The notes under the pieces are model-generated. The model was given only the letters and a program-made list of their open reading frames with translations. It was not told the origin of the DNA and searched no databases. Below are positions 5,859-58,049 of a stretch of DNA of 64,000 nt, piece after piece. How positions within the stretch are numbered: position 1 is the stretch's first letter; each line of letters opens with the position of its first letter. This DNA is from Rhyzopertha dominica (taxonomy: Eukaryota > Arthropoda > Insecta > Coleoptera > Bostrichidae). The position numbers were made by a program, and so were the translations under genes. The DNA is taken from the NCBI GenBank assembly GCA_025024175.1, contig QCXZ01000001.1, forward strand, positions 39,922,942-39,986,941, in the 5' to 3' direction.

Positions 5859-5973
5859 TGTTTCGTTTGAGTTACTGGCATGTGGGTTGCTTTTCAGTTT
5901 GTAGTCAAGTTTGCTTGTTTCTGATTTTTGACTTTGTCAAACTGTTAGTTTCCTTTCATAAGTAATTTTTGTA

Positions 5974-6000: not shown

Positions 6001-6068
6001 GCGCTTTACAATTGTAAAAAATAAAGTGGAAGTTCAGTTTAAGAATTATTTTCTTTAGAAGAATTAAT

Positions 6069-27305: not shown

Positions 27306-27317
27306 AATAAAAAATAT

Positions 27318-28903: not shown

Positions 28904-29180
28904 TTAAGCAGGACGATCTCAATTTGAAACATGTTTATGATGACCATGTCACAACTGACATGACATATCAGCAATTTAAAATAATGTGTAAGGAGTGTTG
29001 GAAAGACAAATGTGGCTTCTTAACAATAGACAAAGACAGTTCCGGTGTAGGCCGATACCGTAAGGGATTTGATACATTCATTCATTTATTGTATTCAGTT
29101 GGGATTATTACTTATACATTTTCGAGTCGCTCTGAACCGCTTTTCAACTGCTCTCAAACCGCTCTCGAACCGCTCTGAAT
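28894..29180 (+). pseudogene. Polinton packaging-ATPase C-terminal fragment (left copy)
   Basis: About 67 codons starting abruptly at 28,894 with no ATG: FKQDDLNLKHVYDDHV, then a DMTYQQFKIMCKECW segment, a GFLTIDKDSS segment and RYRKGFD. This matches my recollection of the C-terminal end of the FtsK/HerA-type ATPase of Polintons, which pumps DNA into capsids. All nucleotide-binding motifs are missing. Downstream the frame runs into the GAACCGCTC array. It starts head-to-head with the truncated capsid-like gene, which marks an old deletion junction. Confidence 0.55.
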
Positions 29181-29632
29181 CGCTCTTGAACTGGTGTGAA
29201 CCGCTCCCGAACCGCTGCTGAACCGCTCCGAACCGCTCTTCAACCGCTCTGAACCGCTCCCGAACCGCTTCCGAACCGCTCCCGAACCGCTTCCGAACCG
29301 CTCCCGAACCGCTCTGAACCGCTCCCGAACCGCTCTGAACCGCTCTCGAACCGCTCTGAACCGCTTCCGAACCGCTCTGAACCGCTCCTGAACCGCTCCC
29401 GAACCGCTTCCGAACCGCTCCCGAACCGCTTCCGAACCGCTCCCGAACCGCTCCCGAACCGCTCTGAACCGCTCTCGAACCGCTCTGAACCGCTTCCGAA
29501 CCGCTCTGAACCGCTCCTGAACCGCTCTGAACCACTCCCGAACCGCTCTGAACCGCTCTGAACCGCTCCCTAACCGATTTGAAACGCTTTCGTACCCTAT
29601 CGTTACTGAACCGGCCTGAAGCGCCCTGAANC
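29130..29632. repeat. GAACCGCTC tandem array (left)
   Basis: About 45-48 head-to-tail units alternating between 10-bp (GAACCGCTCT) and 11-bp (GAACCGCTCCC or GAACCGCTTCC) forms. The long open frame read on the minus strand (Ser/Gly/Arg/Phe repeats) is a by-product of the array. A shorter reverse copy lies at 34,018-34,400. It sits between the ATPase tail and the DUF8207-like gene. Confidence 0.85.
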
Positions 29633-29649
29633 GCTTCTACTTGTAGATA

Positions 29650-30652
29650 TATAAATATAATTTGTTATTGCCGGANAGTGAATCACTAAACAAAGCTCTC
29701 ATTAGAGCAACTCAGTCAGTTAGGAACAAGTACCGTGCTTTACGTAAAGATAGATACAATGAAGAAATCAAATTAGAGAAAACGTATAAGCCGATCGTAG
29801 AACCAATAAAAAAATTTGCTAATAAACTTGTTAAGACTGAACCTGTAAAAGCTGAGCACTGCGTTCCTAAAGAAGAATCCGTGGTTACACAAATATCACC
29901 GTTCAAAAAGGCACTGACTTCTACACCGAGAACTCCCGTCTTTCTTAACGTAGAGGAAATAGCCAGTGCAGAGCCCGAAAATGTTGGTAGTGTGCAAAAT
30001 GAAAGCGTAATACAGTTGAGAGAAGCTTTGGCAAATGCCCCTGAGGAAGTGGATGAGTTCTTATCACATTACGATCCGTTACCTAGAAGATATTTAGAAT
30101 TAATGATACGAGGTACACAGGATATAATTGGCACTCAGTATGGTGTTCACTATGATGTAGATACTTCTACTTGGCGAATTGGAAGCACTGAATTACAGTT
30201 GGATGGCGCAGATTTGTTATTAGGTGGGCACGAGTATAAGGGAACTCCTGGCCTTTATGAGTTAATATTTAAAAAATATCCACGTAATTACACCGATCAA
30301 GATAAACAAATGTATGGTGAAATCCTAGATTTAACAAATTAATATAGAAAGAATTCCAATCCCAAGGGTCAGATTATAGGTAACAAGGGTTATAAATATC
30401 TCAATATAATAAAACCGTTGTTATGGGAACGTACTCAGTCAAGAAAACGGATTCGTAGCGCTGGATCCAATTCTACGGGTCGTAAAGGTTATGGAATTTC
30501 TAAACAAATTACAGACAAACCCATTGAATACATTTACTGGAATACAGCTCATGCTTTATGCTTTATGCATCAAAAGTAGCTGGCAATACTGGCAATGATA
30601 ATGAAATAGTTTCCATTATAGAAGAATTCAGAGAAGAAGGTATAATTGAGTA
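29650..30652 (+). pseudogene. DUF8207-like Polinton gene (left copy)
   Basis: Open from 29,662 to a TAA at 30,340-30,342, then readable remnants continue to about 30,650. The N-terminal region is charged (Lys/Glu-rich) and Pro-containing. The C-terminal domain has STWRIGSTELQLDGADLLLG followed by YKGTPGLYELIFKKYP, which I associate with DUF8207, recurrent in insect Polinton-like elements. After the stop, a Lys/Arg-rich NPKGQIIGNKGYKYLN segment belongs to the same protein. A deletion of about 31 bp removed the initiating ATG, which survives in the right arm. Function unknown. Confidence 0.5.
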
Positions 30653-30683
30653 ACCCCCATAACTAGTTAATGTCAAATCAAAC

Positions 30684-31100
30684 ATGCCTGTCAACAAGTT
30701 CGGATGTAGTTCTCCCAATCGCAAAGTAGTGAGAGGGCCTTCAGGTGTAGGATTTTCATTAACAACTGGAGGCGACTTTGATATCGGAAATAAATGATTA
30801 TGCCATGTAGCTGATGCTATTGATGAAGATGATGTCGTCAACAAAAGATATCTCCATATATTCCAACTAAAAGTATTATCAAAGATTGTGAGAGATGTGT
30901 ACAGTGAATCCGTTTCTGATTTAAATAATCGCACAATGCAAAGCATTAAAGTTACGATAAACAACCTTCGTCAGGATATAGAAGCTAAATTGCTTATGAT
31001 GGAGAGAAAAATGGAAGACATACAAAGAAGTCCCCAGGTGCCCCTGCTACCGGAATATATGGCAACAACCTACTCTTCAACAAAAGAAATAAAAAAATAA
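30684..31100 (+). pseudogene. Polinton coiled-coil/fibre-like protein
   Basis: ATG at 30,684. One frame runs to TAA at 31,098-31,100 with a single TGA at 30,795-30,797. The start (MPVNKFG, then a GPSGVGFSLTTGGDFDI segment and later VNKRYL) resembles the small fibre- or spike-like proteins found in Polintons. The rest is a heptad-like helical stretch (about residues 80-125) rich in Leu, Ile, Met and Lys. The palindrome boundary falls within the first 14 codons, so only this copy is complete. The right arm keeps just the start (complement 32,887-32,927). Identification is tentative. Confidence 0.4.
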
Positions 31101-32886: not shown

Positions 32887-33049
32887 TTGCGATTGGGAGA
32901 ACTACATCCGAACTTGTTGACAGGCATGTTTGATTTGATATTAACTAGTTTTGGGGGTTACTCAATTATACCTTCTTCTCTGAATTCTTCTATAATGGAA
33001 ACTATTTCATTATCATTGCCAGTATTGCCAGCTACTTTTGATGCATAAA

Positions 33050-33937
33050 GCATAAAGCATGAGCTGTATTCCAGTAAATGTATTCAATGGGTTTGTTTGT
33101 AATTTGTTTAGAAATTCCATAACCTTTACGACCCGTAGAATTGGATCCAGCGCTACGAATCCGTTTTCTTGACTGAGTACGTTCCCATAACAACGGTTTT
33201 ATTATATTGAGATATTTATAACCCTTGTTACCTATAATCTGACCCTTGGGATTGGAATTCTTTCTATATTAGTTTGTTAAATCTAGGATTTCACCATACA
33301 TTTGTTTATCTTGATCGGTGTAATTACGTGGATATTTTTTAAATATTAACTCATAAAGGCCAGGAGTTCCATTATACTCGTGCCCACCTAATAACAAATC
33401 TGCGCCATCCAACTGTAATTCAGTGCTTCCAATTCGCCAAGTAGAGGTATCTACATCATAGTGAACACCATACTGAGTGCCAATTATATCCTGTGTACCT
33501 CGTAATTAATTCTAAATATCTTCTAGGTAACGGATCGTAATGTGATAAGAACTCATCCACTTCCTCAGGGGCATTTGCCAAAGCTTCTCTCAACTGTATT
33601 ACGCTTTCATTTTGCACACTACCAACATTTTCGGGCTCTGCACTGGCTATTTCCTCTACGTTAAGAAAGACGGGAGTTCTCGGTGTAGAAGTCAGTGCCT
33701 TTTTCAACGGTAATATTTGTGTAACCACGGATTCTTCTTTAGGAACGCAGTGCTCAGCTTTTACAGGTTCAGTCTTAACAAGTTTATTAGCAATTTTTTT
33801 ATTGGTTCTACGATCGGCTTATACGTTTTCTCTAATTTGATTTCTTCATTGTATCTATCTTTACGTAAAGCACGGTACTTGTTCCTAACTGACTGAGTTG
33901 CTCTAATGAGAGCTTTCTTTAGTGATTCACTATCCAT
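33050..33937 (-). pseudogene. DUF8207-like Polinton gene (right copy)
   Basis: Mirror of the left copy. Here the original start survives (ATG at 33,937, beginning MDSESLKK). A 1-bp loss in a T run near 33,795 and a 2-bp loss near 33,507 break the frame. The stop after ILDLTN (33,269-33,271) is shared with the left copy. So the two copies carry one common lesion and separate private ones. Confidence 0.5.
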
Positions 33938-34017
33938 GATTGCACAAAGCAGTCTAATAATAACGGCAATAACAAATTATATTTATATCTCTACAAGTAG
34001 AAGCGTTTCAGGGCGCT

Positions 34018-34400
34018 TCAGGCCGGTTCAGTAACGATAGGGTACGAAAGCGTTTCAAATCGGTTAGGGAGCGGTTCAGAGCGGTTCAGAGCGGTTCGGG
34101 AGTGGTTCAGAGCGGTTNAGGAGCGGTTCAGAGCGGTTCGGAAGCGGTTCAGAGCGGTTCGAGAGCGGTTCAGAGCGGTTCGGGAGCGGTTCAGAGCGGT
34201 TCGGGAGCGGTTCAGAGCGGTTCGGGAGCGGTTCGGAAGCGGTTCGGGAGCGGTTCGGAAGCGGTTCGGGAGCGGTTCAGAGCGGTTGAAGAGCGGTTCG
34301 GAGCGGTTCGGGAGCGGTTCACAGCAGTTCAAGATCGGTTCAGAGCGGTTCGAGAGCGGTTTGAGAGCAGTTGAAAAGCGGTTCAGAGCGACTCGAAAAT
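34018..34400. repeat. GAACCGCTC tandem array (right, shorter)
   Basis: Reverse-complement array of the same 10/11-bp units, about 120 bp shorter than the left one, showing unit loss or gain after the arms were formed. Long open frames on both strands are artefacts of the repeat. Confidence 0.8.
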
Positions 34401-34624
34401 GTATAAGTAATAATCCCAACTGAATACAATAAATGAATGAATGTATCAAATCCCTTACGGTATCGGCCTACACCGGAACTGTCTTTGTCTATTGTTAAGA
34501 AGCCACATTTGTCTTTCCAACACTCCTTACACATTATTTTAAATTGCTGATATGTCATGTCGGTTGTGACATGGTCATCATAAACATGTTTCAAATTGAG
34601 ATCGTCCTGCTTAAAAAGGATCAA
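34340..34624 (-). pseudogene. Polinton packaging-ATPase C-terminal fragment (right copy)
   Basis: Same 67-codon fragment as at 28,894-29,180, in mirror orientation and almost identical. Its truncated beginning again abuts the beginning of the capsid-like frame (34,615-34,662, plus strand), confirming that the junction pre-dates the palindrome. Confidence 0.55.
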
Positions 34625-34662
34625 GCAAGTACCACAAATCAGATGAAATACGGATAGCTATA

Positions 34663-35499
34663 TGTAATACATGGTATTCATTGACCCGGCGGCATCCGGC
34701 CGAAATCGACTAACTAAGATGAAATGGGAGATATGCGGAATCCATAAACTTCCCGTAAAACATCTTGTCGCAGCAATCCGCCGCGACTGCACAAGGTTCG
34801 TTCACCGAACATTGCAAAATTCGCATTTTTTGCGAAAGTTTCCCGATCGCGTGAAAAATTAAAAAAGAGCAGTACCCCGGTGTCCACGGTCGAAGATACT
34901 TCGAAAACATCGATTTCGTGTCGCAGTTAACTTTCCCTTTTTTTTTGTATTGTGTATATTCTGTCTTTATTACATATTCGTCGTTTGTGTGAAGTGTGTG
35001 GGATCGCCCGACATCGAGGGACTCAAATTTGGTATCGTTACCTCAAAATTATTATTTTCATTTTTTTCTCCAATCACAACGAGAAGCTCGATTGAGATCT
35101 TAAAACTAAAACAAATTCTAAATCAGAATCTGTTGTTTAACGTAAATTCTATTTTCCTTGCGAAGTAAAGCAATACTCCCCGTCAGTAAAATTCTTGCGT
35201 AGATTTGTGAATTAGTATTATTATTATAGTATTAACATTATTGCTTGTCATTTCTTTTAATAATTTTGTTTCCCCTTCTATTTCGTTTTTATTTTAATTG
35301 TCAATATAGTGATTGTCAATTGATTAGGGGAGTTTTCTTTCAAAATTGCTTTTCAGGTTAACTAACTAAATAATAATAATAAAAATAGTGACCCGTTTCT
35401 TCGAGAAGAACCCGCATTCCGAAGAGCTCAATACAATTTTCCTCGCTAAGCGAGGTGGTGGCAGCGAAAACTTAAAACACCCCTATTAAAACTGGAACA
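34663..35499 (+). repeat. 5' LTR of gypsy element
   Basis: 837 bp, TG...CA. Differs from the 3' LTR at a few positions (for example near 35,073, 35,086 and 35,193). The short open frames here and in the 3' LTR are not genes. Contains GCGAGGTGGTGGCAGCG near the right end, similar to the sequence just outside. Confidence 0.95.
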
Positions 35500-35501
35500 T
35501 T

Positions 35502-35519
35502 TGGTGGCAGCTAAAGGGA
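35502..35519 (+). promoter_or_regulatory. primer-binding site (probable)
   Basis: TGGTGGCAGCTAAAGGGA begins two bases after the LTR end, the expected position and starting TGG for a tRNA-primed minus-strand start. I cannot name the tRNA. Confidence 0.55.
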
Positions 35520-35851
35520 TCTCGAAAACGGGAAATGTTATTAAGTTATTCTCGTAACGTGAAATTTCAATCGAAGTTCTTTATTTAATGTGCATTTTTT
35601 ATTGCAAGTTTTATGTGGTTTATGATGTATAATAGAGTTTTGCCTATACAGTACTGATTTTATTTGCGTAGTTTGGAAACACTGCATTAACAAGGTAAGT
35701 GTACATTATTTTGTTTTAATTCGTTGTCGTTTATTTCGATTATTGGAAGCATTCGGTTTTATTTAGTATAAAACAGACATAAACCTTTTAGTTGGTTGCA
35801 TTACATTAACTTGCCCGTGTTTATTTTATGTAATTATTATTAACTACAATA

Positions 35852-36949
35852 ATGTCGCAAGAAAATCTTCCTGCAGCAGTTAGAGAAAACACTGATGTCG
35901 TTTTGAATGCAAATATTCCTCAAACACTGTCTTTAGGCAAGGTTGCCAATACGGTGGAATCTTTTTCGGGACGGGAACGCGTTACGGAGTACTTTGAAAA
36001 AATTAGGTTGCGTGCTCGTTTGGACAATTGGGACGAAAAAACAACCGTAGATATAGTTAAATTTCGTTTGACCGGAGAAGCGTACAGATTTCTAAAAACT
36101 GACCCTGCATTTGAAGACCCAACACTTTCGTTTACAGACTTCGAAGATAAATTTATTAAAAGGTTTTCACCTATTAAAATACCAGGCGAAGCGCTTATGA
36201 AACTAAGTCGATGTTTTCAAAGACACGACGAATCTGTTTCCGATTATGTAGGTCGTTTAAAAATTTTAGGGGCAGAAATTTTAAGGGAGGATACGGCTAC
36301 TTCACAAGCTTTTGAAATAGCAGGTTTAAAGAAAAAATGTAATGAGCTAGTATTACACCAATTTAAGGCTGGTTTAAAAAAAGAATACATGCGTAATATT
36401 GGGACTTTATTAATGCGAACTGCTGGCTTAACTATAGATCAGGCAGAAAATTTTGCAAGGCAAGAAGAACTAAATTCTTTAATGTTAACGAACAGACAAA
36501 ATTCTGGGTCTATATTAGCCGTTAAATGCTTCAAATGCGGCAAATTTAATCACTATGCCAACGAATGTCGAAATCGGCCTCACTTTAATGGGAATTCGAA
36601 TCAGGCGAACCCAAACAATTATGGCGGTAGACAAAACTACCAATTTTCTGGAAATTTTAGACAGCCGAGGCAGCCTCATCCACATTTTAACCATCATAAC
36701 TTTGGCCGCCATTTTGATCGAAGTCAGCAACAACCAGGTCCAAGTAATAATTATGTCAACCGCAGCCGTCCAAATAATGTTAACGCTAACCAATTCGCGC
36801 GTCGCGATGATTACGCCAATCAAACTTTTAATCGTCAACCGCCCCCGAATCAAAATTTTCAAAGTAGTAGTCAAAATTCAGTTTCTAAAACGGTAGCTTC
36901 TTTAAACTGGAACAACCCTTCGATTGCTCCCCAAACCGGAGGGAATTAA
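35852..36949 (+). CDS. gag: gag polyprotein of gypsy element
   Basis: 365 codons from ATG 35,852 (context ACAATAATG) to TAA 36,947-36,949. Residues about 30-205 form a helical Gag-like capsid region (FSGRERVTEYFEKIRLRA, then a LxxKFxxRF-type stretch and a DYVGRLK segment). A CCHC zinc knuckle lies at residues 226-239 (C-x2-C-x4-H-x4-C). It is followed by an Asn/Gln/Arg/Pro-rich nucleic-acid-binding tail. Gag packages the genomic RNA. The last 20 codons overlap the pol frame, with the slippery heptamer at 36,901. Intact, unlike the 3' half of the element. Confidence 0.9.
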   Translation: MSQENLPAAVRENTDVVLNANIPQTLSLGKVANTVESFSGRERVTEYFEKIRLRARLDNWDEKTTVDIVKFRLTGEAYRFLKTDPAFEDPTLSFTDFEDKFIKRFSPIKIPGEALMKLSRCFQRHDESVSDYVGRLKILGAEILREDTATSQAFEIAGLKKKCNELVLHQFKAGLKKEYMRNIGTLLMRTAGLTIDQAENFARQEELNSLMLTNRQNSGSILAVKCFKCGKFNHYANECRNRPHFNGNSNQANPNNYGGRQNYQFSGNFRQPRQPHPHFNHHNFGRHFDRSQQQPGPSNNYVNRSRPNNVNANQFARRDDYANQTFNRQPPPNQNFQSSSQNSVSKTVASLNWNNPSIAPQTGGN

Positions 36950-39900
36950 ATACTTCTGAAAATCATCAGCGTTTTATACAACCCTTAGAAAATTTCCAAA
37001 ATTCCACTTGCAGTAAACAATTTATTGTTAGCGTCCCAAAAATTAATTATGAAAGTGTAGCTGATACTCCGAGTGTAATATATTTGCATGTAAATGGCAG
37101 AAACTGTAGTTTCTTTGTGGACAGTGGTTCTCAAGTGTCATTAATAAAAAGTAAATTTATTCAATGTAATAATCTAATACGAACCGAAGAATATCAGCTC
37201 ACTGGAATAACTGGACATAGCGTAGAAGCTTTAGGAACATCCGAAATTATTGTAGGTACAAGTGAAAAGTTAAATTGTGCTGTTTTTAAATTTATTGTTT
37301 GTGATGACAGCCTCATACAGACAGATGGAATTTTAGGAAGAGATTTTCTTAGGGCTAACGCAGCTGAAATTAATTTTAGTGAGGATAAGATTAAACTTTG
37401 GGGTAAATATTTTTGTATGTTTTTAATCAATGACGACCAGGCTTACTATAATGTGCATGTTAATGGAAAAGATATGGTGTTGGACTGTGTTTACGAGCGA
37501 TGTCACGAACGGGTAGGTGTTGATTTCAATAATGCTGTGAAGGTTATCGAAACCAAACTTCCCCAAAATAATAGCACTTTTGAGGAATTTAATGTTGTAG
37601 AAAATGTTAGTAATCCCAGGTCAATTCCAGTGACAGTCGACAATGCTGCGAAGGTTGTCGAATGTAGATATCCTGCTGAAGATATATTAGTTATTAGAGA
37701 AAATCCTAGCAGTGCTGCGAAGGCTACTAGTGATAATAATAGTAATAATAATACTAATTTTAAATGTGCAAGGAATAAATCTAATTATTCTGAAACAGGT
37801 AATAATTTGCCAGAAGTTATAAATGTTGAGGTTTTAGTTGACGAATATGGTGAAGTAAGTGATTATGATTCAGATGATGAAAACTATTATAGAAGCTTTG
37901 CACAGCGGGAAGCTGATTTAAAACAAGTAGAGTTAAATAAAGTGAATAAAATAAGTAAAGTCAGAGTAGAATATGATAGTAATAAACATGAACCCGTTAC
38001 AAATAAAATGGAATATTCTGATGTTATTTTGGAAGACGATTTAATAATGCCTCCTAGATGCGAAGTCAATTGTATGGGCGTAATTAAAAATAAATTAAAA
38101 GGTGAAAATGTTCTAATAGAGACTCAAGATATTGGTATAAATGGTGTTATTTTGGCACGTTCTTTAGCACATAATGACAGTAAATGTAATTTAAGGTTGA
38201 TAAATGTCAGAGATGAACCCATTACATTAAAAGCCAAAGCTAAAGTTGGCCTAGCCTGTACAAATGTAAAAGTACTGGAAGCCCAATGTACCAGGACTTT
38301 CAGACATGCCGATTTGAAAGATTTTCATACTGATCAAATTATAAACCAGTTAGATTTATCACACTTAAATACGGACGTAGCGTATACGGTACGAGGGTTG
38401 ATACAAAATTATTCAGACATTTTTAGTAATGAAGATGAAATTCTAACCAGCACTTCAAAAGTGAAACACCAAATTGTAACAGAGCAAGTTGCTCCTATAG
38501 CTAAACGTCAGTATCCAGTACCGTATCATCAAAAACCCATTCTACAGAAAGAAATTGCTCGACTATTAGAAAGTAATATAATTCGGGAATCTGTATCTCC
38601 ATGGTCCGCGCCCGTAGTGCTAATCACAAAGGAAACGCCTGGAGGAGAACAAAAAATTCGTATGTGTATAGACTACCGAGGTTTGAATGCTGTTACTAAG
38701 CGAGATTTTTATCCATTGCCAAATCTACAGCAATCGTTTGACTATTTTGGTAAGGCAAATTTATTTAGTACCCTCGACGTGCGATCAGCCTATCACCAAA
38801 TAGATATGGTGGAGGGCGATAAGGAAAAAACTGCTTTTAGTACTTTAGGAGAACATTGGGAGTTTAATAAGATGCCATTTGGCCTAGTTAACAGTCCTAG
38901 TACATTTCAGCGATTTATTAATGTTACTTTATCAGGTTTGACTGGACAGATTTGCCTAGCTTACTTAGATGATATTATAATTTTTAACTCTGCCGGTATA
39001 GATGATCATTTGGAGAAATTGGCACTAGTTTTTGAGAGACTCAGAGATGCAAATATCAAATTAAAGCCAGATAAATGCTTCTTACTAATGAAGCAAATAA
39101 AATATTTGGGCCACGTAATCAGTGAAGATGGCATAAGGCCAGATTCAGAAAAATTCATAGCGGTTAAGAATTTTCCATTACCAAAAAGTGTTAAAGAATT
39201 ACGCGGATTTTTAGGACTAGTAGGTTGGTATAGACGGTTCATACCAAATTTCTCGATTGTTGCTGCTCCTTTAACTAATCTCACAAAAAAGTCGACCGAC
39301 TTTAAAATTACAGCTGATGCTCTTACTGCAATCAACGAACTTAAGAATGCGATTACTTCCGAATCTGTCTTGGCTCACCCAAATTTCGACCATCCATTTA
39401 TATTAGCTACAGATGCTTGTAAGATAGGAATCGCTGGCATATTAAGCCAAGTTGTTAATGGTTACGAAAGACCTATTGCCTTCTTTAGTAAAAAGTTGAA
39501 TAAGTCGCAAAGCAATTATTCGGCAACTGAACTAGAATTGTACGCGGTAGTAGAAAGCGTCAAACATTTTCGGTGTTATTTATACGGACGAAAGTTCACA
39601 GTAATTTCTGATCATGCGCCTTTAAAATGGCTGATGACTCTAAAAGACCCTACGTCTAAATTAGCTCGGTGGAATCTCCTGTTGTCTAGTTATGATTTTG
39701 AAATTGTACATAGGCAAGGACGTAAGCATGGAAATGTAGATGCTCTAAGCAGAGCTCCAGTAGATCCACAAAATTTTGAATCATACAGTCTAAAGGATTT
39801 TTTTGAATATATTAAAGAAAACAAAATTGAGAATAACAATTTTAGAGAGGTAAAAGGAAATTTATTTACTGCTCCAGATAATTATTCTTTGGCACACTGT

Positions 39901-40551
39901 GTATCAAAAGATTTTGCCATGGAACAAGGATTAGCGCTACAATTTAGGCAATTATATGGTTCAATAAATGAACTTAAGAATCAAAACAAAACTGTAGGAG
40001 AAGTAGCTGTTTTAAATTTACCTGAACGTAATATTTATTGTTTAATTACAAAAAGTCAGTACTACAACAAACCAACGTATGATAGTCTTTGGAGTGCTCT
40101 TATTAATTTAAGGCTATCTTGTGTGCAAAATGACGACTATAATGTGGCAATTCCTAAGTTAGGATGTGGCAGAGATAAGCTTGAATGGAGTACAGTATCT
40201 AAAATGATTAAATTTATTTTTGCGAAATCTTCAATTGAAATTTTAGTCTACGAATTTGACCAGAGCCAGGTAAGTATAAATGCAATAGAGGTGAACCCTC
40301 CCTTCCTACCAGTATGGGACAGAGACATCATTTTACGAGAACAAAAGAGTGATGAGTTTTGCCGTACTATTTGTCAGAATTTAGAAGAGAATGAAGACCC
40401 TCTATCTTATTACCTCGATAACGATGGATTGTTGTTTAAAACCACAGTAGCAGAAAATTTTAACGATGTCTTAGTTATTCCAAAAACCTATATCAAAAAG
40501 GTTTTACATGACTTCCATGATTTGCCTTTCTGCCTTTCTGGGTCAAGCTAA
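36889..40551 (+). CDS. pol: pol: protease, RT, RNase H, macro domain
   Basis: Open in the -1 frame from 36,889 (usable from the slippery site) to TAA 40,549-40,551. Numbered from codon 37,084: aspartic protease DSG at 13-15; a long Asn/Asp-rich linker (about 120-440); RT from about 460 with LDVRSAYH (Asp 565) and the YLDD box (629-630); RNase H with Asp 777, Asp 843 (SDHAP) and Asp 886 (DALSR); a macro domain at about 920-1061; then the approach to integrase. The frame ends early because an 8-bp tandem duplication (TGCCTTTC twice, 40,523-40,539) shifts it just before the integrase zinc finger. Confidence 0.92.
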   Translation, partial: NGSFFKLEQPFDCSPNRRELNTSENHQRFIQPLENFQNSTCSKQFIVSVPKINYESVADTPSVIYLHVNGRNCSFFVDSGSQVSLIKSKFIQCNNLIRTEEYQLTGITGHSVEALGTSEIIVGTSEKLNCAVFKFIVCDDSLIQTDGILGRDFLRANAAEINFSEDKIKLWGKYFCMFLINDDQAYYNVHVNGKDMVLDCVYERCHERVGVDFNNAVKVIETKLPQNNSTFEEFNVVENVSNPRSIPVTVDNAAKVVECRYPAEDILVIRENPSSAAKATSDNNSNNNTNFKCARNKSNYSETGNNLPEVINVEVLVDEYGEVSDYDSDDENYYRSFAQREADLKQVELNKVNKISKVRVEYDSNKHEPVTNKMEYSDVILEDDLIMPPRCEVNCMGVIKNKLKGENVLIETQDIGINGVILARSLAHNDSKCNLRLINVRDEPITLKAKAKVGLACTNVKVLEAQCTRTFRHADLKDFHTDQIINQLDLSHLNTDVAYTVRGLIQNYSDIFSNEDEILTSTSKVKHQIVTEQVAPIAKRQYPVPYHQKPILQKEIARLLESNIIRESVSPWSAPVVLITKETPGGEQKIRMCIDYRGLNAVTKRDFYPLPNLQQSFDYFGKANLFSTLDVRSAYHQIDMVEGDKEKTAFSTLGEHWEFNKMPFGLVNSPSTFQRFINVTLSGLTGQICLAYLDDIIIFNSAGIDDHLEKLALVFERLRDANIKLKPDKCFLLMKQIKYLGHVISEDGIRPDSEKFIAVKNFPLPKSVKELRGFLGLVGWYRRFIPNFSIVAAPLTNLTKKSTDFKITADALTAINELKNAITSESVLAHPNFDHPFILATDACKIGIAGILSQVVNGYERPIAFFSKKLNKSQSNYSATELELYAVVESVKHFRCYLYGRKFTVISDHAPLKWLMTLKDPTSKLARWNLLLSSYDFEIVHRQGRKHGNVDALSRAPVDPQNFESYSLKDFFEYIKENKIENNNFREVKGNLFTAPDNYSLAHCVSKDFAMEQGLALQFRQLYGSINELKNQNKTVGEVAVLNLPERNIYCLITKSQYYNKPTYDSLWSALINLRLSCVQNDDYNVAIPKLGCGRDKLEWSTVSKMIKFIFAKSSIEILVYEFDQSQVSINAIEVNPPFLPVWDRDIILREQKSDEFCRTICQNLEENEDPLSYYLDNDGLLFKTTVAENFNDVLVIPKTYIKKVLHDFHDLPFCLSGSS
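36901..36907 (+). promoter_or_regulatory. TTTAAAC -1 ribosomal frameshift site (gag/pol)
   Basis: TTTAAAC is read T-TTA-AAC in the gag frame. Slipping back one base gives TTT-AAA-C, in frame with pol. It lies inside the only gag/pol overlap (36,889-36,949). Starting 8 bases downstream, CCCT (36,916-36,919) can pair with AGGG (36,940-36,943), with a competing CTCC/GGAG pairing, so a stimulatory stem is possible. Confidence 0.8.
39841..40266 (+). other. TARG1/OARD1-like macro domain inside pol
   Basis: About 140 residues between RNase H and integrase match the macro-domain plan of the ADP-ribosyl-glutamate hydrolase TARG1: an opening VKGNLF strand, a SLAHCVSKD-FAMEQGLA ligand loop, GEVAVL, IYCLITK, KPTYDSL, and an IPKLGCGRDKLEW second loop. 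TARG1 catalysis needs a Lys (after LIT) and an Asp (after GCG plus one residue). Both are present, Lys at 40,051-40,053 and Asp at 40,174-40,176, separated by 41 residues exactly as Lys84 and Asp125 in the human enzyme. One change is notable: MGAG in the first loop is MEQG. No stop or shift occurs within it. Likely role: removing ADP-ribose from Gag, integrase or host proteins (inferred). Confidence 0.85.
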
Positions 40552-41814
40552 AACCTTAAGTTTAATACAACAGCGTTTCTTTTGGCCCGGAATGAAGTCT
40601 GATGTAGTCAAATACTGTCAACAATGTCATTCGTGTAGCCAGTGAAAAACATCACCCCATTTTAAGAAAGTACCTTTAGAACAAATGCCTGAAGTACTGT
40701 ATCCTTTCGATAGAACTTCCATGGACATATGTGGTCCTTTTGTCACGTCTTATGCAGGAAATAAGTATCTGTTGACCTTCCAGGACCACTTTAGTAAATA
40801 TGTAGAAGCATTTCCAATCTCTGATCAGAAAGCAGACACTATAGCGCGTATTTTTGTCACGAAATTATTGCCAGACATGGAACACCAAAGCAACTGCTAA
40901 CTGATCAAGGTAGTAATTTCTTGTCAAATTTATTCAAAAATATTTGTAAATTGCTACATATTGAAAAGCTACAGACTACTCCCTATCATCCCCAATCCAA
41001 CGGTTTGATAGAGCGCAGTCATAGGGTTTTTAAGGATATTATTTCTCACTATGTTGCAAAAAGTCAGCAAGACTGGGATATCTGGATCCCCTATGTAGTA
41101 ATGGCCTATCGTTTTAATATACATAGCTCTACAGGATTTAGTCCTTATTTCTTACTACATGGTAGAGATCCGGTATTGCCATTCGACGACATTTTAAAAC
41201 CACAAGTAGTGAAGTATGATTACGATCAAAATTACGTTTCGGAATTGATGGCAAGGCTAAATTCAGTTTTCACTACGGTTCGACAAAACTTAGATAGTGC
41301 AAAAGCTCGTCAAGCTANTAACTATAACAAAAGAACAAAATCTAAATATNTNGATTTGGGACAATTGGTTTATTTGAATGACCCTACCGTACAAGTAGGC
41401 TTATCAAAAAAATTAGGCAAGCCATGGATAGGTNCATATCGGATAATTGAAGTTAAGGGCCCTGTGACTTACAAAATTAGAAAATTAAATGGCAGACAAG
41501 AGTTAGTAGTCCATTCAAATCGTTTGAAGTTGTGCCAGACTGACGAACAAAATTTTTTAGATAATAATGAAGTTATACCTGTTTATGATGGTAATACACC
41601 CCAAATTGAAAATGTTGATGATTTTGGCATAAATCCAAGGGAAGTAACTATGAATATTTTCCCAGCTCTGACCAGAGTACTTCCTGATGTACCTGAGCCA
41701 CAGTCAGATGTACAAAACGAGGAAGAATTAGGTACTGTGATACGCGATGGTAAAAAAGTATGTACGAGAATTCGAAAACCTCCTAAAAGATTCACCTTTT
41801 CTGAATACGATTAA
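40552..41814 (+). pseudogene. integrase of gypsy element (frameshifted)
   Basis: Continues pol in other frames. The HHCC-type zinc finger ends at a CxxC segment near 40,617-40,636, then TGA at 40,643-40,645 interrupts. The catalytic core has Asp in SMDICGPF (about 40,722), Asp in TDQGSNF (about 40,904) after a second frame change near 40,882, and Glu in GLIERSHR (about 41,010). The C-terminal region runs to TAA at 41,812-41,814, with four undetermined bases at 41,318-41,433. Integrases join the cDNA into target DNA. At least two frame changes and one stop make this copy inactive unless some are sequencing errors. Confidence 0.85.
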
Positions 41815-42018
41815 TCCAATTTTCTTTTTTCTTTTCTGTTTCGGTACGTACTTGTTCCTCTACAAATTTTTGACGCCGACTTGTGTTAGATTTAGACTTG
41901 TTTTAATTGTATAGCTGTTTTAATCGTGTGCTACATTTCAGATATTATAAGTTAATTTCCTCATACAGTAAAGACAGACATTCATATTGGCAGAAACGTA
42001 TATATTGACTTAGGAGAA
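41815..42018. other. pol-env spacer
   Basis: AT-rich 200 bp between the integrase stop and the env ATG. Env would normally come from a spliced mRNA, and TTTCAGATATTATAAG near 41,936 would serve as an acceptor (inference). Confidence 0.35.
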
Positions 42019-44605
42019 ATGCTCTCAACTGTGCTGTTTGTAAGTGCTTGGTGCATGCTGTGCTATGGTTTTATCGCGTATGACTGTGCGGACAATACTA
42101 TGAACATTACGGCAGTGTCATTGAACGATGTAGCACCCTGCGCCGAAGAAGGAACCGATTACACCCAGGAAACGGTCAGCNNNNNNNNNNNNNNNNNNNN
42201 NNNNNNNNNNNNNNNNNNNNNNNNNNNNNNNNNNNNNNNNNNNNNNNNNNNNNNNNNNNNNNNNNNNNNNNNNNNNNNNNATGTACAAACGAGGAAGAAT
42301 TAGGTACTGTGATACGCGATGGTAAAAAGTATGTACGAGAATTCGAAAACCTCCTAAAAGATTACCTTTTCTGAATACGATTAATCCAATTTTCTTTTTT
42401 TTTTCTGTTTCGGTACGTACTTGTTCCTCTACAAATTTTTGACGCCGACTTGTGTTAGATTTAGACTTGTTTTAATTGTATAGCTGTTTTAATCGTGTGC
42501 TACATTTCAGATATTATAAGTTAATTTCCTCATACAGTAAAGACAGACATTCATATTGGCAGAAACGTATATATTGACTTAGGAGAAATGCTCTCAACTG
42601 TGCTGTTTGTAAGTGCTTGGTGCATTGCTGTGCTATGGTTTTTATCGCGTATGACTGTGCGGACAATACTATGAACATTACGGCAGTGTCATTGAACGAT
42701 GTAGCACCCTGCGCCGAAGAAGGAACCGATTACACCCAGGAAACGTGTCAGCGTCCAGGTGGATCCAGCGCAATGAAATAAAATTGGCAGAAGGTCCAAA
42801 CTTGTTTAGTCGAAATAAGTCGTATTATTATGCATTTGTGGCATGCATAGCCATACCTCAGCAGTGGGCGGGTGGGATTTGCAGAATATATTCACCCCTT
42901 TAGGAGCAGGAATTTGTGCAGAGATCTCCACAAGCATAAAACCATCCACCTGTATCAGCAAAAATGTGGGAATATTGTCATTAATGGAACAACCACAGCA
43001 TCCTTGACCCCTAATGGGGCATTTAAAAGACGACGGTAACCTGTGAAGGAGTCAACCTACACGGAAGATGGACACAGCTGGACCCAAGTAGTAGTGATAG
43101 CTTCGATAAAAATTCACTCTCATGAGTACCTTGCACACGTGAAATTGGATAGTAACGAGATAACTGTAACCAGTGGAGTAGTTTGTCCCTATCTAAACGG
43201 CTACTGTGTAGACTCAAAGTATGGAGAAACCGTTTGGGACTATACGCCGCAAGTAAGTTGTGAAGAGGGACTTACTCTTATTTACGAAGGGAAGACCCAA
43301 CTCATTGGAACCAAAACGAACGGAAAATATATGGTAATTGAGCAGGAGGAAAAGATTTTCGCGCTGTCTTTGAAAGGGACTGCACATATTTGCAGCGGAG
43401 ACGTTTGGCAAACGGAGCACCCCAAGCTGCTGGTAATCGAAAAGGGTAAACATCACGAGTTAACACCTAAAATGGCGCTATTGGCCACCAACACCGATCT
43501 ATCCATATATATTAATAGTAAGCTCCTGTACATTGAACAATCTTATAAACGAGCCATAGATAAGTTATACGTCGATTCGATATATCGCCGGTGCAAGATT
43601 CATAGAGAAACTCTTAAAAATAGATTACTAATGGCCCCTTTAACTTCTAACGCCCTAGGTGCGTTAATAAAGAACCAATTGGGATACGTTGGACGAGTTT
43701 TGGGTGAAGTACTGTACATCGGAAAATGCATTCCCCGTCTGGCGCAAATACGAAGAACTACGGAGTGTTATAACGAACTGCCTGTTACCTCGAACAACAA
43801 AAGCTACTTTATGGCCCCCATAACCCACATTTTACAAACCCACGGTGAGCAGATAGAATGCAGCCCGCTTATGCCCCCTTTATACAAATTAGGCGACGAC
43901 TGGGTAGGATTATCGCCATACCCTGTAGTGAAGGAGGCCCCAATAGAATTACAAGTGGAGGAAGAAATCAAATTAAATTTTGGCCCAATACAACCTCTTA
44001 GTTCCGGTGGACTCTACACAAACGAGGAGATATCCAAAGTACAAAAAACCCTTATATTCGGAATAGAAAGATCAGTGGTCAATAATANAGNCACCAGAAG
44101 GATAGCCGGCTNAGAAACGAACAGCCAAGGATATTCAGCGCNTGATATATTCGATCCGCAAGAAATTAAAAGTCTAGCACGGTCGACATTACAATACGTG
44201 TGGGGCTGGTTCACCGATATAGGAATGGTAATGAGTGGAGTCATTGGTATCTATGTTGTCATTAAAGCCTTGAAGTATATCATCGAAGTAACCATAAATG
44301 GAGTAGCTATATACAATGCCCTTGGATGCGGATTAGCACTGTTTGCAAGCCTATGGAACACCCTTGCAGTATGGGTTGTGCATAGACAACACACAAAAGG
44401 GAGTACCATCAAACATGAAGACACCGCCGACGATACCCCAACAGAAGTGATCACCGAGGAACCAAAACCAGTACCTCGTGCACACAATGCACGGGTCAAA
44501 ACTTCATCTTCCGTGACCGAATCCAATATCAACCCTATTTACGGAAGTAGAATCTCCCTCTACCCTAACGTACCACACTGGAGTGAAGTTGCGAGCAACT
44601 TCTAA
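42019..44605 (+). pseudogene. env: env: chuvirus-type glycoprotein, broken
   Basis: ATG at 42,019 opens with a hydrophobic signal peptide (about 20 residues) followed by AYDCADNTMNITAVSLNDVAPC, a motif style I know from glycoproteins of Chuviridae and their captured copies in insect retroelements. After the gap the reading resumes in broken frames (42,770-43,040) and becomes open from 43,043 to TAA 44,603-44,605. There, a CYNELPV... ITHILQ segment, CSPLMPPLYKLGDDW and SSGGLYTNEE support the same family. Two hydrophobic segments at about residues 395-455 are the fusion-protein anchor region, followed by a hydrophilic tail of about 65 residues. Ns, frame breaks and the gap prevent a functional protein in this assembly. 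Confidence 0.7.
42181..42280. other. assembly gap (100 N)
   Basis: Exactly 100 Ns, a placeholder for an unknown gap. The 470 bases before it (from about 41,708) and after it (to about 42,755) are the same sequence with single-base differences in homopolymers. The gap therefore joins two overlapping contig ends. Confidence 0.95.
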
Positions 44606-45059
44606 TAACGAGAAGATCTAGGCTACGTTTAGGAGCGCTTTCTTTCAGGTTGTAAATCATTCGACAGTCATTTTCCCAGGTCTTACCAATACCTTCCTGC
44701 CGCAATGGACCCGGCTGGCAATATCCTTTTCCTATCGCATTTCCTTTGCCTATAAGTAATTCGATTCTGAATATCCACGTCAGGTAAACAAAGAATATAG
44801 GAGATGCAGATCTTGAGGAGTCCAAGGCGACGGCATCATCATCTCAACCATTCAAGTGACGAGCAGAGGACTCAGTGAGAGTAGTGGTTGTGCTGGGTGG
44901 CGCAGCGCTTTACCAGCAGTTGAGAGACATTGAAAATGACAATAGAATTATTATTTACGGATTTTTAATTTTTCTTAAAGCATTGATTTTCTTTTAGTTT
45001 GTTCTTATTTTTAATTTGGAAAAAATTGATACTTGTTTGAAGTATAACAATTTTTTTTT
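44606..45059. other. gypsy 3' untranslated region
   Basis: About 450 bp between the env stop and the polypurine tract. No coding signal. AT-rich near the end. Confidence 0.5.
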
Positions 45060-45068
45060 GAGGGGGAG
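45060..45068 (+). promoter_or_regulatory. polypurine tract
   Basis: GAGGGGGAG, three bases before the 3' LTR, the expected plus-strand primer. Confidence 0.8.
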
Positions 45069-45071
45069 TAT

Positions 45072-45908
45072 TGTAATACATGGTATTCATTGACCCGGCG
45101 GCATCCGGCCGAAATCGACTAACTAAGATGAAATGGGAGATATGCGGAATCCATAAACTTCCCGTAAAACATCTTGTCGCAGCAATCCGCCGCGACTGCA
45201 CAAGGTTCGTTCACCGAACATTGCAAAATTCGCATTTTTTGCGAAAGTTTCCCGATCGCGTGAAAAATTAAAAAAGAGCAGTACCCCGGTGTCCACGGTC
45301 GAAGATACTTCGAAAACATCGATTTCGTGTCGCAGTTAACTTTCCCTTTTTTTTTGTATTGTGTATATTCTGTCTTTATTACATATTCGTCGTTTGTGTG
45401 AAGTGTGTGGGATCGCCCGACATCGAGGGACTCAAATTTGGTATCGTTACCTCAAAATTATTATTTTCATTTTTTTCTCCATTCACAACGAGAAACTCGA
45501 TTGAGATCTTAAAACTAAAACAAATTCTAAATCAGAATCTGTTGTTTAACGTAAATTCTATTTTCCTTGCGAAGTAAAGCAATACTCCCCGTCAGTAAAA
45601 TTTTTGCGTAGATTTGTGAATTAGTATTATTATTATAGTATTAACATTATTGCTTGTCATTTCTTTTAATAATTTTGTTTCCCCTTCTATTTCGTTTTTA
45701 TTTTAATTGTCAATATAGTGATTGTCAATTGATTAGGGGAGTTTTCTTTCAAAATTGCTTTTCAGGTTAACTAACTAAATAATAATAATAAAAATAGTGA
45801 CCCGTTTCTTCGAGAAGAACCCGCATTCCGAAGAGCTCAATACAATTTTCCTCGCTAAGCGAGGTGGTGGCAGCGAAAACTTAAAACACCCCTATTAAAA
45901 CTGGAACA
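45072..45908 (+). repeat. 3' LTR of gypsy element
   Basis: 837 bp, the same length as the 5' LTR and nearly identical, followed by the TATA duplication at 45,909-45,912. Confidence 0.95.
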
Positions 45909-46980
45909 TATACAATGCCAGGATCTAATTACGGCAACATACGCTAACCATATCTACATAGAAGGTAAACTATCAAAGGAAGACGTTAGTAAAGGAGCGC
46001 ATATTACCAGCAATGCATTCGCGTTCTTATTTAAAGAAATTAGGTTCGAGATTAACGGTATTGTCGTAGATTTTTGTAAAGAACCAGGCATAAAATCCAG
46101 TATCTTGGGATTATTATTGTATAATTCTGCAGAGTGCAGGGCTCTCAGTGTGGCAGGGTGGTCTGGAATTGGTGTATATAATGAAATTAATGATGATGGT
46201 ACTTTTTGTGTACTAATTCCACTTGAATTTTTACTTGGTTTTGCTCGCGATTATAAGAAGGTGTTAATGAACGTAAGACAGGAATTAATTCTGATACGTA
46301 GTGGAAAAGATGAGAACTGCTATGTTAATGTAGATACCGAAGCGTCTATCGATATCTCAAGGATGGAATGGAGGGTTCCGCACGTAACAGAAAATGACGT
46401 AATAAGGCTTGAATTGTTGAAGCAAGTTAATCAGGATGCTCTTATAACAATGGCCTTTCGGCGTTGGGAAATTTATGAATTACCTGCCTTGAAACCTACA
46501 AAATTAGATGTATGGCAAGTCCGATCCTCTTCTAACTTGCAGAAACCTAGATATGTAGTACTAGGATTTCAGAGGAAAAGGAAAAATAATAAATTACAAA
46601 TAGCTAGTAACTTTGACCACCTCAGTATTACCAATATAAAGTTATATCTGAATTCCGAATCGTATCCATATCAGCAATGGAATATGGATTTTGATAAAAA
46701 TAAGTATGACACTGCATACATCAATTACATTAATTTCCAGAACAGTTATTTAGGTCGTTCCTCTGAACCACTAGTGAGTTATGATGAATTTAAAAATAAT
46801 CCACTCTTTGTTTTGGACTGTTCAAAACAAAACGAAGCTATTAAAACAAGTGTAGTTGATGTCAAAATTGAAATGGAGGGGATGCGCAATTTTCTCCAAG
46901 ATGCCGTTGTGTGTGCTCTTATTATTCACGATACTGTCGTCGAATATAGGCCGCTAGGCGGGGAAGTCAGAAAACTTTAA
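45909..46980 (+). pseudogene. Polinton major-capsid-like protein (right copy), split by gypsy
   Basis: Continuation of the frame that begins at about 34,615-34,662 and is cut by the gypsy insertion after a dozen or so codons. Ends at TAA 46,978-46,980. Differs from the left copy at only two residues that I notice (Arg/Lys and Ile/Met around 46,305 and 46,363). It is otherwise intact, so the gypsy insertion is its only private lesion. The family assignment carries the same uncertainty as the left copy. Confidence 0.55.
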
Positions 46981-47451
46981 GATACTGTTAGTAGACATAC
47001 AAGGATTCACAGTTCCTGGCTTTGTGTTAAAAAAAAACTTGCTGTAACAAACGGTAGAACAACGACACATTACGTTTTCTGACCTCCGCCTCCATACACA
47101 CAATTGGGTAAAAAGGAAAAGAGACAGGTGCGTTGGGTGGAAAAATTTCATCATAGCATCCGTTGGAATACTGGTTTTACAAGTTTAAAGGAACTGTCCC
47201 GCATACTCCAACGCGTTACATTTGGAGAATCTATAATTTATTGCAAAGGACTATTGAAAGTGAATTTTCTTAAAAAATATTTACCAGATAGGATAAAAGT
47301 GTATAATATAGAAAATCATGTTCAATTTTCACTCAAACATTATATTGCAGAACCTCCTTGTTTTGTCCATGATTTAAGTACACGCTTTTGTGCAATTACC
47401 ACTATAAATGTAATGCAGAAATATTTGTATAATAAACAAGTACTAATTTAA
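46975..47451 (+). pseudogene. unidentified Polinton gene B (right copy)
   Basis: Free of Ns here, so the damage is clearer. The N-terminal segment (KILLVDIQGFTVPGF, starting near 46,977) has no ATG. It runs to a stop at about 47,081-47,083 (HYVF then stop, followed by PPPPY), and the same protein continues to TAA 47,449-47,451. The missing start and the stop agree with the left copy as far as its Ns allow. It overlaps the end of the capsid-like gene. Function unknown. Confidence 0.4.
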
Positions 47452-47463
47452 ATATTTTTTATT

Positions 47464-47874
47464 TCAATCTACGGTACCTAAAACAATATGTATAATAAAA
47501 ATATCAATTGCATCAAGTTCGAAGTCTGAAAGCATATCTGCCCATTGTTCACCTTCACCTCTGGACGTGCTCCCCATGCGCTCAGTTTCCGGTTTTCTTC
47601 TATCTTCTAGTTCATACTCACTCTTGGATTCTAGAAACTGAATAGAACATTAGAAATAATATTACTAAAAGGATTACACTATTTACCTTCAAAACTGCTC
47701 TGCCGTTGACGCGGATGGTGAAATTTCCTGTATAATTTGGCGACATAATGGACAAGTATTTGAACTTTTTCTCCATTTACAAACGCAGTAATTGCAAAAA
47801 GCATGAGAGCCATTTTAAACCACTGGTAATATAAATATGTCTAGACATATACTACAAATGATATCGTGTTCCAT
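47464..47874 (-). pseudogene. RING-finger gene in Polinton (right copy)
   Basis: Mirror of the left RING gene: ATG at 47,874, C3HC4-like RING with the same missing zinc ligand and internal stop, the same stop before the splice donor, the same intron position, and a second acidic exon ending at 47,464. The converged defects suggest one decayed ancestor for both arms. Confidence 0.65.
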
Positions 47875-48352
47875 TCTGTTACACGTTTGTTAGAATATTA
47901 GAGACTTCAGCGGCGACAGAACACTATCCCTCGTTAATCTCCCCCCACACCTTTTTCTAATGATCTGGTATGTTGCAGGTAAGAACAGGTATAATTTTCT
48001 AGACAACAAAAATTCTTATAAAAGGAGTAACATATTCTCGGATTCGACTTGTTAGAACTTGTCATATTCCACTATAAATGTGTAAAGGAGAGTACAGATA
48101 TGTGCTTAGTAAGCGAAATATAATCCCATAATTGTTCAATATTTCTGCTGTCAGCATTACGGGAACTATCTAGAACATGTTTCTGTGGTATATATTCAAG
48201 TGGCCAATGAAGTTCTGCCAGTTACAGTATCAACAGTCGTCTGTGCTTCAGTTCACTGTTCAGTGTTTTAGTGGTGAGACGTGATAACTAGTGATAGTAG
48301 CATAATATTATTTCTTATCATTTAGCGGTATGTATTCTAGATTTTAAGAATA

Positions 48353-49034
48353 ATGGCTTACATAGTTGTATGGGCGCTTCAAGGATTTAACAGTCTTATG
48401 TTATACAACAAATAGAAGAAGCTGATGATGCAACGATCCATGGAAACAGAAGGTGCTAACCAAGATGGACCATTCGTTGGATCTACACATTATGGGCTGA
48501 ACAGAACCAACACCAAAACTTTGGAAGTGGGAATTTCACCTGTAGATCTTCTTCCATTCGTTCGGATAGTATCAGCACGCAATGCAGTTGCGTTTGGATT
48601 GGTCGAGTGGAATAATTTTATACAGCATAGGTATCCTATCATGGACTACTTCGAAAATCAAAACTGCCGCTGGCACTATGTATAAGTTCGATAACTACAA
48701 CATTCAGTTAGAGGAGTATAAAAAAGTGAAGGTGCTCAGAATAATCGGACCTTACAGCGAGATATTCTTGAGGTATGAAACAACAAAAAACTTATTTCAA
48801 ATAACACATATTGTAAATTGTAAGCTAGAGTATCTGATGCGTCAAGATTTTCAGAGTTTTTATACTTCAGTACTAAACAAAGTAAAGAAATTAAGGAGCC
48901 AGGAAATTGAAAAAGAAATAGAGTTGTATCTTAATTTATCTCCTTTGAACGCTAAGAAAATATGTATGTTAGAAATGATATTATGGAATAAGAATAAAAT
49001 TGTGTATGATCTAGAAATGTGCAATAAATATTAA
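48353..49034 (+). pseudogene. unidentified Polinton gene A (right copy)
   Basis: ATG 48,353, in-frame TAG 48,413-48,415, then the frame 48,425-48,685, then the overlapping frame 48,582-49,034. The positions of the amber codon and of the frame change are the same, to the base, as in the left copy. Confidence 0.4.
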
Positions 49035-57542: not shown

Positions 57543-57585
57543 AAATTATTTTTGTGTATAAAATTACTCCAAATATAAAACACGT

Positions 57586-57948: not shown

Positions 57949-58049
57949 GTTTGCGAGTGTTGACAACTTTATCATATTTGGAGTAATTTTATACACAAAA
58001 ATAATTTTTGCGATAACCTATTGCGATAACTTGTACGCGACGCGCCGGC

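Follow-up and report, generated by a model that had tools for sequence, protein, structure and literature searches.

A TARG1-type macro domain is a recurrent module in the pol frames of Ty3/gypsy retroelements of Rhyzopertha dominica

The stretch of Rhyzopertha dominica DNA analysed here (64,000 nucleotides of contig QCXZ01000001.1, hereafter the window) contains a young Ty3/gypsy long terminal repeat (LTR) element at 34663-45908, whose pol includes, at 39841-40266, the coding sequence of a complete TARG1-type (ALC1-like) macro domain. This domain is a standing pol module in several Ty3/gypsy lineages, which are env-bearing where env was seen. The element shows the features by which Ty3/gypsy elements (Metaviridae) are recognized: protease, reverse transcriptase (RT), RNase H, and integrase in this order, LTRs of the form TG...CA, and a short target-site duplication, TATA in the window sequence. 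A public protein of the same element type (P0005), whose macro domain is identical, shows the same order within a single frame. In the window, the uninterrupted pol frame from 37084 to 40551 contains the macro domain and closes at 40549-40551, and the integrase is in pieces; an intact macro frame beside a broken integrase is also what an earlier, sequence-only reading of this DNA had described. The host site of the element is one arm of an inverted repeat, and alignment located the empty site in the other arm, at 28856-28859.

The motifs SLAHC, LITK, KPTY, and GCGRDKLEW were all present in the translation of 39841-40266; the sequence-only reading, which had placed a macro domain with these landmarks between RNase H and integrase, was correct in coordinates, frame, and motifs. 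When the domain was compared with the PDB by phmmer, human TARG1 was the top sequence match (E 2.2e-34, 44% identity over 135 residues ungapped), followed by far weaker matches, DarG macrodomains foremost. The nine sequence matches comprised five TARG1 entries, three DarG/DarTG entries, and one unnamed bacterial protein. Lys71 and Asp112 of the window domain aligned with TARG1 Lys84 and Asp125, which confirmed the predicted catalytic pair at its 41-residue spacing. Lys84 is named in the available text of PMC7050489 and, as K84, in that of PMC8501950; the second residue is printed as Glu125 in the former, although the PDB chain shows Asp there. A chance match was rejected on the basis of the TARG1 E value and the genome-wide recurrence described below.

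Structure modelling agreed with the sequence matches. An AlphaFold2 model built from an alignment of 18 rows reached a predicted local distance difference test (pLDDT) score of 93.7 and a predicted template modelling (TM) score of 0.89, and the structural overlay proposed beforehand bore out the assignment: the best Foldseek match in the PDB was TARG1 (4j5s; E 1.5e-17, TM 0.94, root-mean-square deviation 1.0 Å). The top eight fold matches were TARG1 entries and the next four were DarG or DarTG, while MacroD1, MacroD2, or viral macrodomain titles were absent from the 50 PDB fold matches listed. We therefore rejected the MacroD-type viral class for the window domain, since TARG1 and DarG lead its sequence and fold matches. 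A hidden Markov model (HMM) check gave a divided answer: the TARG1 match by phmmer was strong, but the Pfam Macro model (PF01661) scored 17.9 bits, under its gathering cut-off of 22, so that an annotation based on Pfam alone would miss the window domain. Four relatives, P0019, P0023, P0027, and P0029, exceeded this cut-off.

A search of the 479-Mb R. dominica genome (E up to 0.001) returned 116 macro matches, some of which are fragments of one and the same disrupted locus. We fetched 70 of these, including the window copy (L007); the other 46 were mostly partial. RNase H was found upstream on the same strand in 70 of the 70 and integrase downstream in 66, the misses being L022, L039, L056, and L061. 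The macro stretch was free of stop codons in 62 of the fetched copies, 60 of which were exactly 140 residues long, and among these full-length intact copies Lys was kept in 59 and Asp in 59. Isolated N bases in the window, together with the env gap whose N run has duplicated flanks, could point to an assembly chimera or annotation artefact, and a one-off chimera had been named in the sequence-only reading as the finding that would overturn it. This explanation is refuted by the 116 genome matches, the order shared by 66 of the 70 fetched copies, and the identical domain in P0005, and we give it practically no credence. The features of the window element are listed in Table 1.

Table 1. Coordinates of the macro-bearing Ty3/gypsy element in the window
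Feature	Position	Strand	Basis
Left target-site duplication TATA	34659..34662	.	Read from sequence
5' LTR, TG...CA	34663..35499	+	Alignment to 3' LTR, 3 mismatches/838 aligned columns
Presumed primer-binding site region (TTTGGTGGCAGC...)	35500..35520	+	LTR-adjacent position; no tRNA matched
gag open reading frame with zinc knuckle	35852..36949	+	Pfam Retrotrans_gag, zf-CCHC
pol open frame, -1 frame overlap with gag end; early end in integrase zinc-binding region	36889..40551	+	
Protease	37087..37371	+	Pfam RVP
Reverse transcriptase core	38635..39120	+	Pfam RVT_1
RNase H	39382..39693	+	Pfam RT_RNaseH
TARG1-type macro domain	39841..40266	+	Translation, phmmer, AlphaFold2, Foldseek
Catalytic codons of macro domain, Lys71 and Asp112	40051-40053 (Lys71), 40174-40176 (Asp112)	+	
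Integrase core, first piece, frame broken both sides	40685..40900	+	Pfam rve, 22.2 bits, under cut-off 32.6
Integrase second piece with p58 C-terminal domain	40921..41814	+	Pfam Integrase_p58_C
Presumed env 5' piece, entering assembly gap	42019..42303	+	Open reading frame only
Assembly gap, 100 N flanked both sides by same ~0.47 kb (41708-42180, 42281-42752)	42181..42280	.	
env main piece, chuvirus-like class fusion glycoprotein	43043..44605	+	Pfam Monjiviricetes_fusion, 445 bits
Presumed polypurine tract GAGGGGGAG	45060..45068	+	Read from sequence
3' LTR	45072..45908	+	Alignment to 5' LTR
Right target-site duplication TATA	45909..45912	.	

The inverted repeat around the element pairs 25132-30724 with 32887-34662 plus 45909-49646 (99.4% identity over 3738 bp). 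Each arm contains a 291-residue open reading frame (ORF), at 27788-28663 on the minus strand and 46105-46980 on the plus strand; the first, the one of the two that was scanned, resembles a double jelly-roll protein (Pfam PF21738, 268 bits), and the repeat with this ORF is perhaps part of a virus-like DNA element. Elsewhere in the window, self-complementary palindromes at 15775-17551 (98.7% arm identity), 5196-6068 (93%), and 56832-58689 (86%) may be either biological or assembly-made. A chemosensory receptor-like ORF, the chief pointer within the sequence to an arthropod host, lies at 63273-63917 on the plus strand (Pfam 7tm_7, 30 bits), and a further RT ORF at 14821-16008 on the minus strand (Pfam RVT_1, 42 bits).

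By RT and macro identity, the genomic copies were labelled as subfamilies A (the window's) to G, at least seven in two clades. Clade I (A, B, and C) shows 74-76% RT/RNase H identity, yet 47-54% macro identity; in clade II (D, E, F, and G), RT/RNase H identity is 65-92% within the clade and 46-52% to clade I. Seven downstream stretches were fetched across subfamilies. Monjiviricetes_fusion was found in the window and in a single copy each from A, B, and C, and Baculo_F in a single copy each from D and G; no open frame reaching 180 codons was present in the E and F stretches. Because A/B/C and D/G carry different env and the same macro position, two lineages share the macro domain at the same site. 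The window element itself falls outside Errantivirus in the narrow sense, which is marked by a baculovirus F-like env. A host TARG1 gene was found at L085, in two exon-like blocks 42% identical to the window domain; L085 joined the elements in no supported group and is not the closest relative of the element macros, so that recent capture from R. dominica TARG1 is unsupported. The sequence-only reading had proposed a host hydrolase captured by an env-bearing retroelement: a TARG1-class domain kept by an env-bearing Ty3/gypsy element was indeed found, but a recent origin from this host is not supported.

Selection on the macro domain was gauged both between and within subfamilies, in part by the ratio of nonsynonymous to synonymous substitution rates (dN/dS), a measurement suggested in the sequence-only reading, and values lay below 1 wherever they could be computed. 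Between subfamilies, macro dN/dS was 0.11-0.30 in nine computable pairs with dS near saturation, and E versus a further sequence, E3, gave 0.15 at unsaturated dS. Within subfamilies, a single pair from A with few changes gave 0.25, and the pooled ratio of nonsynonymous to synonymous polymorphism (pN/pS) was 0.36 (A), 0.51 (B), 0.06 (C), 0.46 (D), 0.44 (E), and 0.16 (F); G had zero synonymous differences, and its pN/pS was not computable. These values used 16, 8, 4, 17, 7, 2, and 2 copies of A to G, respectively, after exclusion of broken or oddly framed copies and one N-bearing G copy. Retroelements commonly capture cellular sequence, and the domain could be a passenger of this kind, a captured host sequence without function, as the loss of Lys in one copy and of Asp in another might suggest. 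The open frame, the dN/dS below 1 across subfamilies that differ at about half of macro residues, and the recurrence at three sites in several RT clades make this explanation, already disfavoured, very improbable.

Public protein cluster searches with the window domain and the P0007 domain yielded 27 proteins in total, of which 14 were pol-type (RT and/or integrase) and the remaining 13 were host, RNA-virus, or unplaced proteins. Among the pol-type proteins, the macro domain lies before the protease in four (P0007, P0012, P0013, and P0023), between RNase H and integrase in another four (P0005, P0006, P0027, and P0029), and after integrase in six (P0014, P0015, P0016, P0019, P0020, and P0026). 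A single pol position was thus rejected: the position between RNase H and integrase proposed in the sequence-only reading is real, but instead of a single insertion there are many elements and three pol positions. P0015, filed under a fungus, shows no RT in its available stretch and may be a contaminant. Lys and Asp were kept in 47 of 47 aligned macro rows, including all 14 pol-type proteins, in an alignment that excludes P0011, P0032, and the second domains of multi-macro proteins. A CCCH zinc finger directly follows the C-terminal macro domain in P0016 (residues 1330-1353) and P0015 (residues 746-769). In each of the sawfly proteins P0009 to P0011, two TARG1-type macro domains are clear and others are weak.

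One of these proteins, P0023, combines an intact N-terminal macro domain with a macro-like stretch between RNase H and integrase (residues 881-1095) that is without the Lys and Asp. The support for this stretch is weak by one method, hhalign, which gave a probability of 26% and an E of 7e-4 across 59 columns; an HMM search within a set of ten gave 1.8e-4, and blastp matched subfamily F at 1e-6. We regard the stretch as a probable decayed macro domain. Because P0023 pairs an intact macro with a decayed one, it shows the pattern expected if the activity itself is selected, and a dying copy in the course of being replaced would give the same picture, here in a single protein. No decayed macro was found in the RNase H/integrase linkers of P0019, P0016, P0020, P0026, P0014, P0007, P0012, or P0013; the linker comparison is uninformative for subfamily D, whose row was out of frame with 35 stops. 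The idea that the usual gypsy RNase H/integrase linker is a decayed macro was not adopted, its weak support coming from P0023.

TARG1-type domains also occur in viral contexts. P0030 has such a macro domain, with the catalytic pair, fused to a viral methyltransferase, and fold matches among the predicted viral structures of BFVD included VP8 of Kadipiro virus (46% identity), flavi-, negev-, and virga-like proteins associated with thrips (26-35%), and a match in an isopod iridescent virus (38%). Searches of viral contigs gave zero matches with the window domain alone and zero with the RT alignment; the macro alignment found five loci with such a macro domain. L001, a viral contig of 78.8 kb, carries a TARG1-type macro domain with 44% identity.

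To follow the descent of the macro domain, we compared macro trees with an RT/RNase H tree of 27 rows, all macro-bearing, on which macro position requires at least five changes among macro-bearing elements. The main macro groups match the RT groups, while the branching inside them disagrees. Clade I macros and P0006 formed one supported group in three macro trees (96/93, 99/91, and 98/96), and further groups were P0016/P0020/P0026 and P0007/P0012/P0013, the latter near P0014. Middle-position clade II macros grouped with P0027 (94/86) in a run without four long-branch rows; in another macro tree, the macros of G and P0027 did not resolve. Inside clade I, RT joins A and C (90/90), whereas the macro domain joins B and C (88/84 and 97/85), C being a long branch. 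Inside clade II, RT joins E and F (91-92% identity; 100/99), whereas the macro domain joins D and E with F outside (94/87, 95/85, and 92/73). Furthermore, P0029 groups with P0016/P0020/P0026 by RT (85/83) and not by macro, and P0019 and P0023 have RTs in clade II and macros outside it. Macro exchange between subfamilies or uneven rates would explain this discordance. In approximately unbiased (AU) tests, one origin for all retroelement macros was not rejected (p-AU 0.106; 140 columns), nor was one clade of middle-position clade II macros (p-AU 0.502) or of clade I plus clade II middle-position macros (p-AU 0.398); one clade for all macros of RT clade II, relocated ones included, was borderline (p-AU 0.055).

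Family and fold, the conserved catalytic pair, the fixed architecture, the dN/dS and pN/pS values below 1, the recurrence at three positions, and the P0023 pattern suggest that the macro domain is likely an active ADP-ribosyl-hydrolase serving the element. Our best reading, put forward tentatively with activity and substrate inferred, is that the particle would contain this hydrolase alongside RT and integrase. Since pol overlaps gag in the -1 frame, the domain would be made as part of Gag-Pol and packaged with both enzymes, and it would thus be at hand during the synthesis of complementary DNA (cDNA) and its preparation for integration. Catalysis would follow the TARG1 route, with Lys71 attacking the distal ribose and Asp112 resolving the intermediate. 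ADP-ribose added by host transferases may in this way be cleared from the cDNA, at its ends or single-strand thymidines, or from proteins of the replication and integration complex, a putative retroelement counterpart of DarG and TARG1 action on DNA. Human TARG1 removes ADP-ribose from acidic residues, nucleic-acid ends, and DNA thymidine (available text of PMC7050489 and PMC8501950). For a domain located in the complex of reverse transcription and integration, a substrate that is nucleic acid or complex-bound is a better fit than a free role in the cytosol; that the main substrate is nucleic acid or a cDNA complex, and not host proteins of the cytosol, appears possible, at slightly under even odds.

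A role in cytoplasmic counter-defence, the idea of the sequence-only reading, which also raised action on the element's own Gag or integrase, would instead have the domain remove mono-ADP-ribose put by host PARPs on host or Gag proteins, a function also proposed for the macrodomains of RNA viruses. The macro-methyltransferase fusion P0030 and the macro folds in Kadipiro virus VP8 and thrips-associated RNA viruses speak for such a role, and these RNA viruses have no DNA stage. On the other hand, in the pol-type proteins the macro domain is encoded in a single open frame together with RT and/or integrase, an arrangement that points to the replication complex, and arthropods are not expected to have the antiviral PARPs that belong to the vertebrate interferon system; we therefore consider this role unlikely. 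Less likely still, the domain might be a reader rather than an eraser, binding ADP-ribose or poly(ADP-ribose) to tether the integrase complex near PARP1-marked chromatin, much as has been proposed for the chromovirus chromodomain. A domain that neighbours integrase in the genomic copies and follows it C-terminally in six of the 14 pol-type proteins would suit tethering, as would the altered ligand loop of subfamily C; the catalytic residues, however, are among the few invariant columns, and the N-terminal site before the protease in P0007, P0012, P0013, and P0023 is ill-suited to it.

Several observations weigh against an active hydrolase acting in the particle on nucleic acid or its complexes. 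Lys is lost in L044 and Asp in L021, one copy each. In subfamily C (L036 to L039), His19, KPTY, and the GCG ligand loop are lost while Lys and Asp are kept; the open frames are long (1619-1620 amino acids in three copies), and the flanks examined, 5' of two copies and 3' of one, yielded no macro domain that could replace the altered one, so that catalysis may not be needed in this subfamily. Single within-subfamily pairs with few changes gave dN/dS values of 0.84 (D) and 0.68 (B). The macro domain also diverges faster than its neighbours: A and B share 54% identity in the macro domain versus 77% in RNase H, and E and F share 64% versus 89-92% in RT (L054, L059 to L064, and L075), a pattern compatible with adaptation on the surface, exchange, or weaker constraint. 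In addition, an element-borne TARG1-type copy might seem redundant beside the host's own TARG1, and the presence of such macros in RNA-virus proteins argues for a protein or RNA target. Altogether, the earlier interpretation was partly supported; it was right in kind, with its mechanism unproven.

More broadly, TARG1-type de-ADP-ribosylation could be a recurrent accessory of invertebrate env-bearing Ty3/gypsy retroviruses, gained or moved several times, in part to the pol sites where vertebrate retroviruses have dUTPase, because hosts ADP-ribosylate the cDNA or integration complex; we offer this as a conjecture, with the balance somewhat against it. If true, it would mean an unrecognised host defence together with its antidote, a eukaryotic parallel of DarT against phage. 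TARG1 is described as an animal eraser of thymidine adducts in the available text of PMC8501950, and research on nucleic-acid ADP-ribosylation began only recently. An enzyme kept inside the polyprotein of a mobile element suggests that ADP-ribose matters for a replication step, and the occurrence of the same enzyme at other pol sites elsewhere hints at an unknown host-retroelement conflict over an ADP-ribose tag. With several lineages, three positions, and natural variants such as subfamily C at hand, an in vitro test is direct, and for the annotation of gypsy pols it seems worthwhile to consider matches that score under the Pfam threshold.

Our literature search, which took in env and errantivirus work, found no description of a macro domain in a Ty3/gypsy pol among the papers listed, with a prior mention possible in Basta et al. 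2009 or Chary and Hayashi 2025; the word "macro" is absent from the main texts of PMC13172572, PMC12440569, PMC12992720, and PMC10084718 as available. Epsilon-like endogenous retroviruses of ray-finned fish have additional macro-domain ORFs, after Basta et al. 2009 as cited in the available text of PMC4977317. These are LTR retroviruses that carry a macro domain too, but as separate extra ORFs whose macro class is unstated in that text. Macro domains in retroviruses have therefore been reported already, and it is the class, sites, recurrence, and abundance that appear new.

Among known systems, TARG1 (OARD1, C6orf130) shares with the window domain its sequence, fold, and catalytic Lys and Asp at the values given above; TARG1 is a stand-alone cellular enzyme, whereas the window macro is a domain inside a retroelement pol, in one uninterrupted frame. 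The DarG macrodomain has a close fold (TM 0.84-0.87) with 19-25% identity to the window domain, and the NCBIfam DarG model matched the latter partially (47 bits versus a cut-off of 250). No DarT partner was among the Pfam matches of the eight element pieces scanned, with no search aimed at DarT. Retroviral dUTPase lies between RNase H and integrase in non-primate lentiviruses and before the protease in betaretroviruses. It is thus an accessory enzyme at the same two pol sites, but an unrelated one that acts on nucleotide pools. The chromodomain of chromoviruses is likewise an extra domain on a Ty3/gypsy pol, a chromatin reader of a different class. Its position is the C-terminus of pol (available text of PMC12440569). 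Coronavirus and togavirus macrodomains are viral and share ADP-ribose chemistry, but the comparison with RNA-virus macrodomains drawn in the sequence-only reading calls for caution: they are MacroD-type, the window domain is TARG1/ALC1-like, and ALC1-like enzymes differ most in catalytic mechanism (available text of PMC7050489). Finally, the mosquito LTR element Anakin, of the Pao group, has a chuvirus glycoprotein (available text of PMC10084718 and PMC12440569); a chuvirus-like env in an LTR element is what it has in common with the window element, which, unlike Anakin, is Ty3/gypsy.

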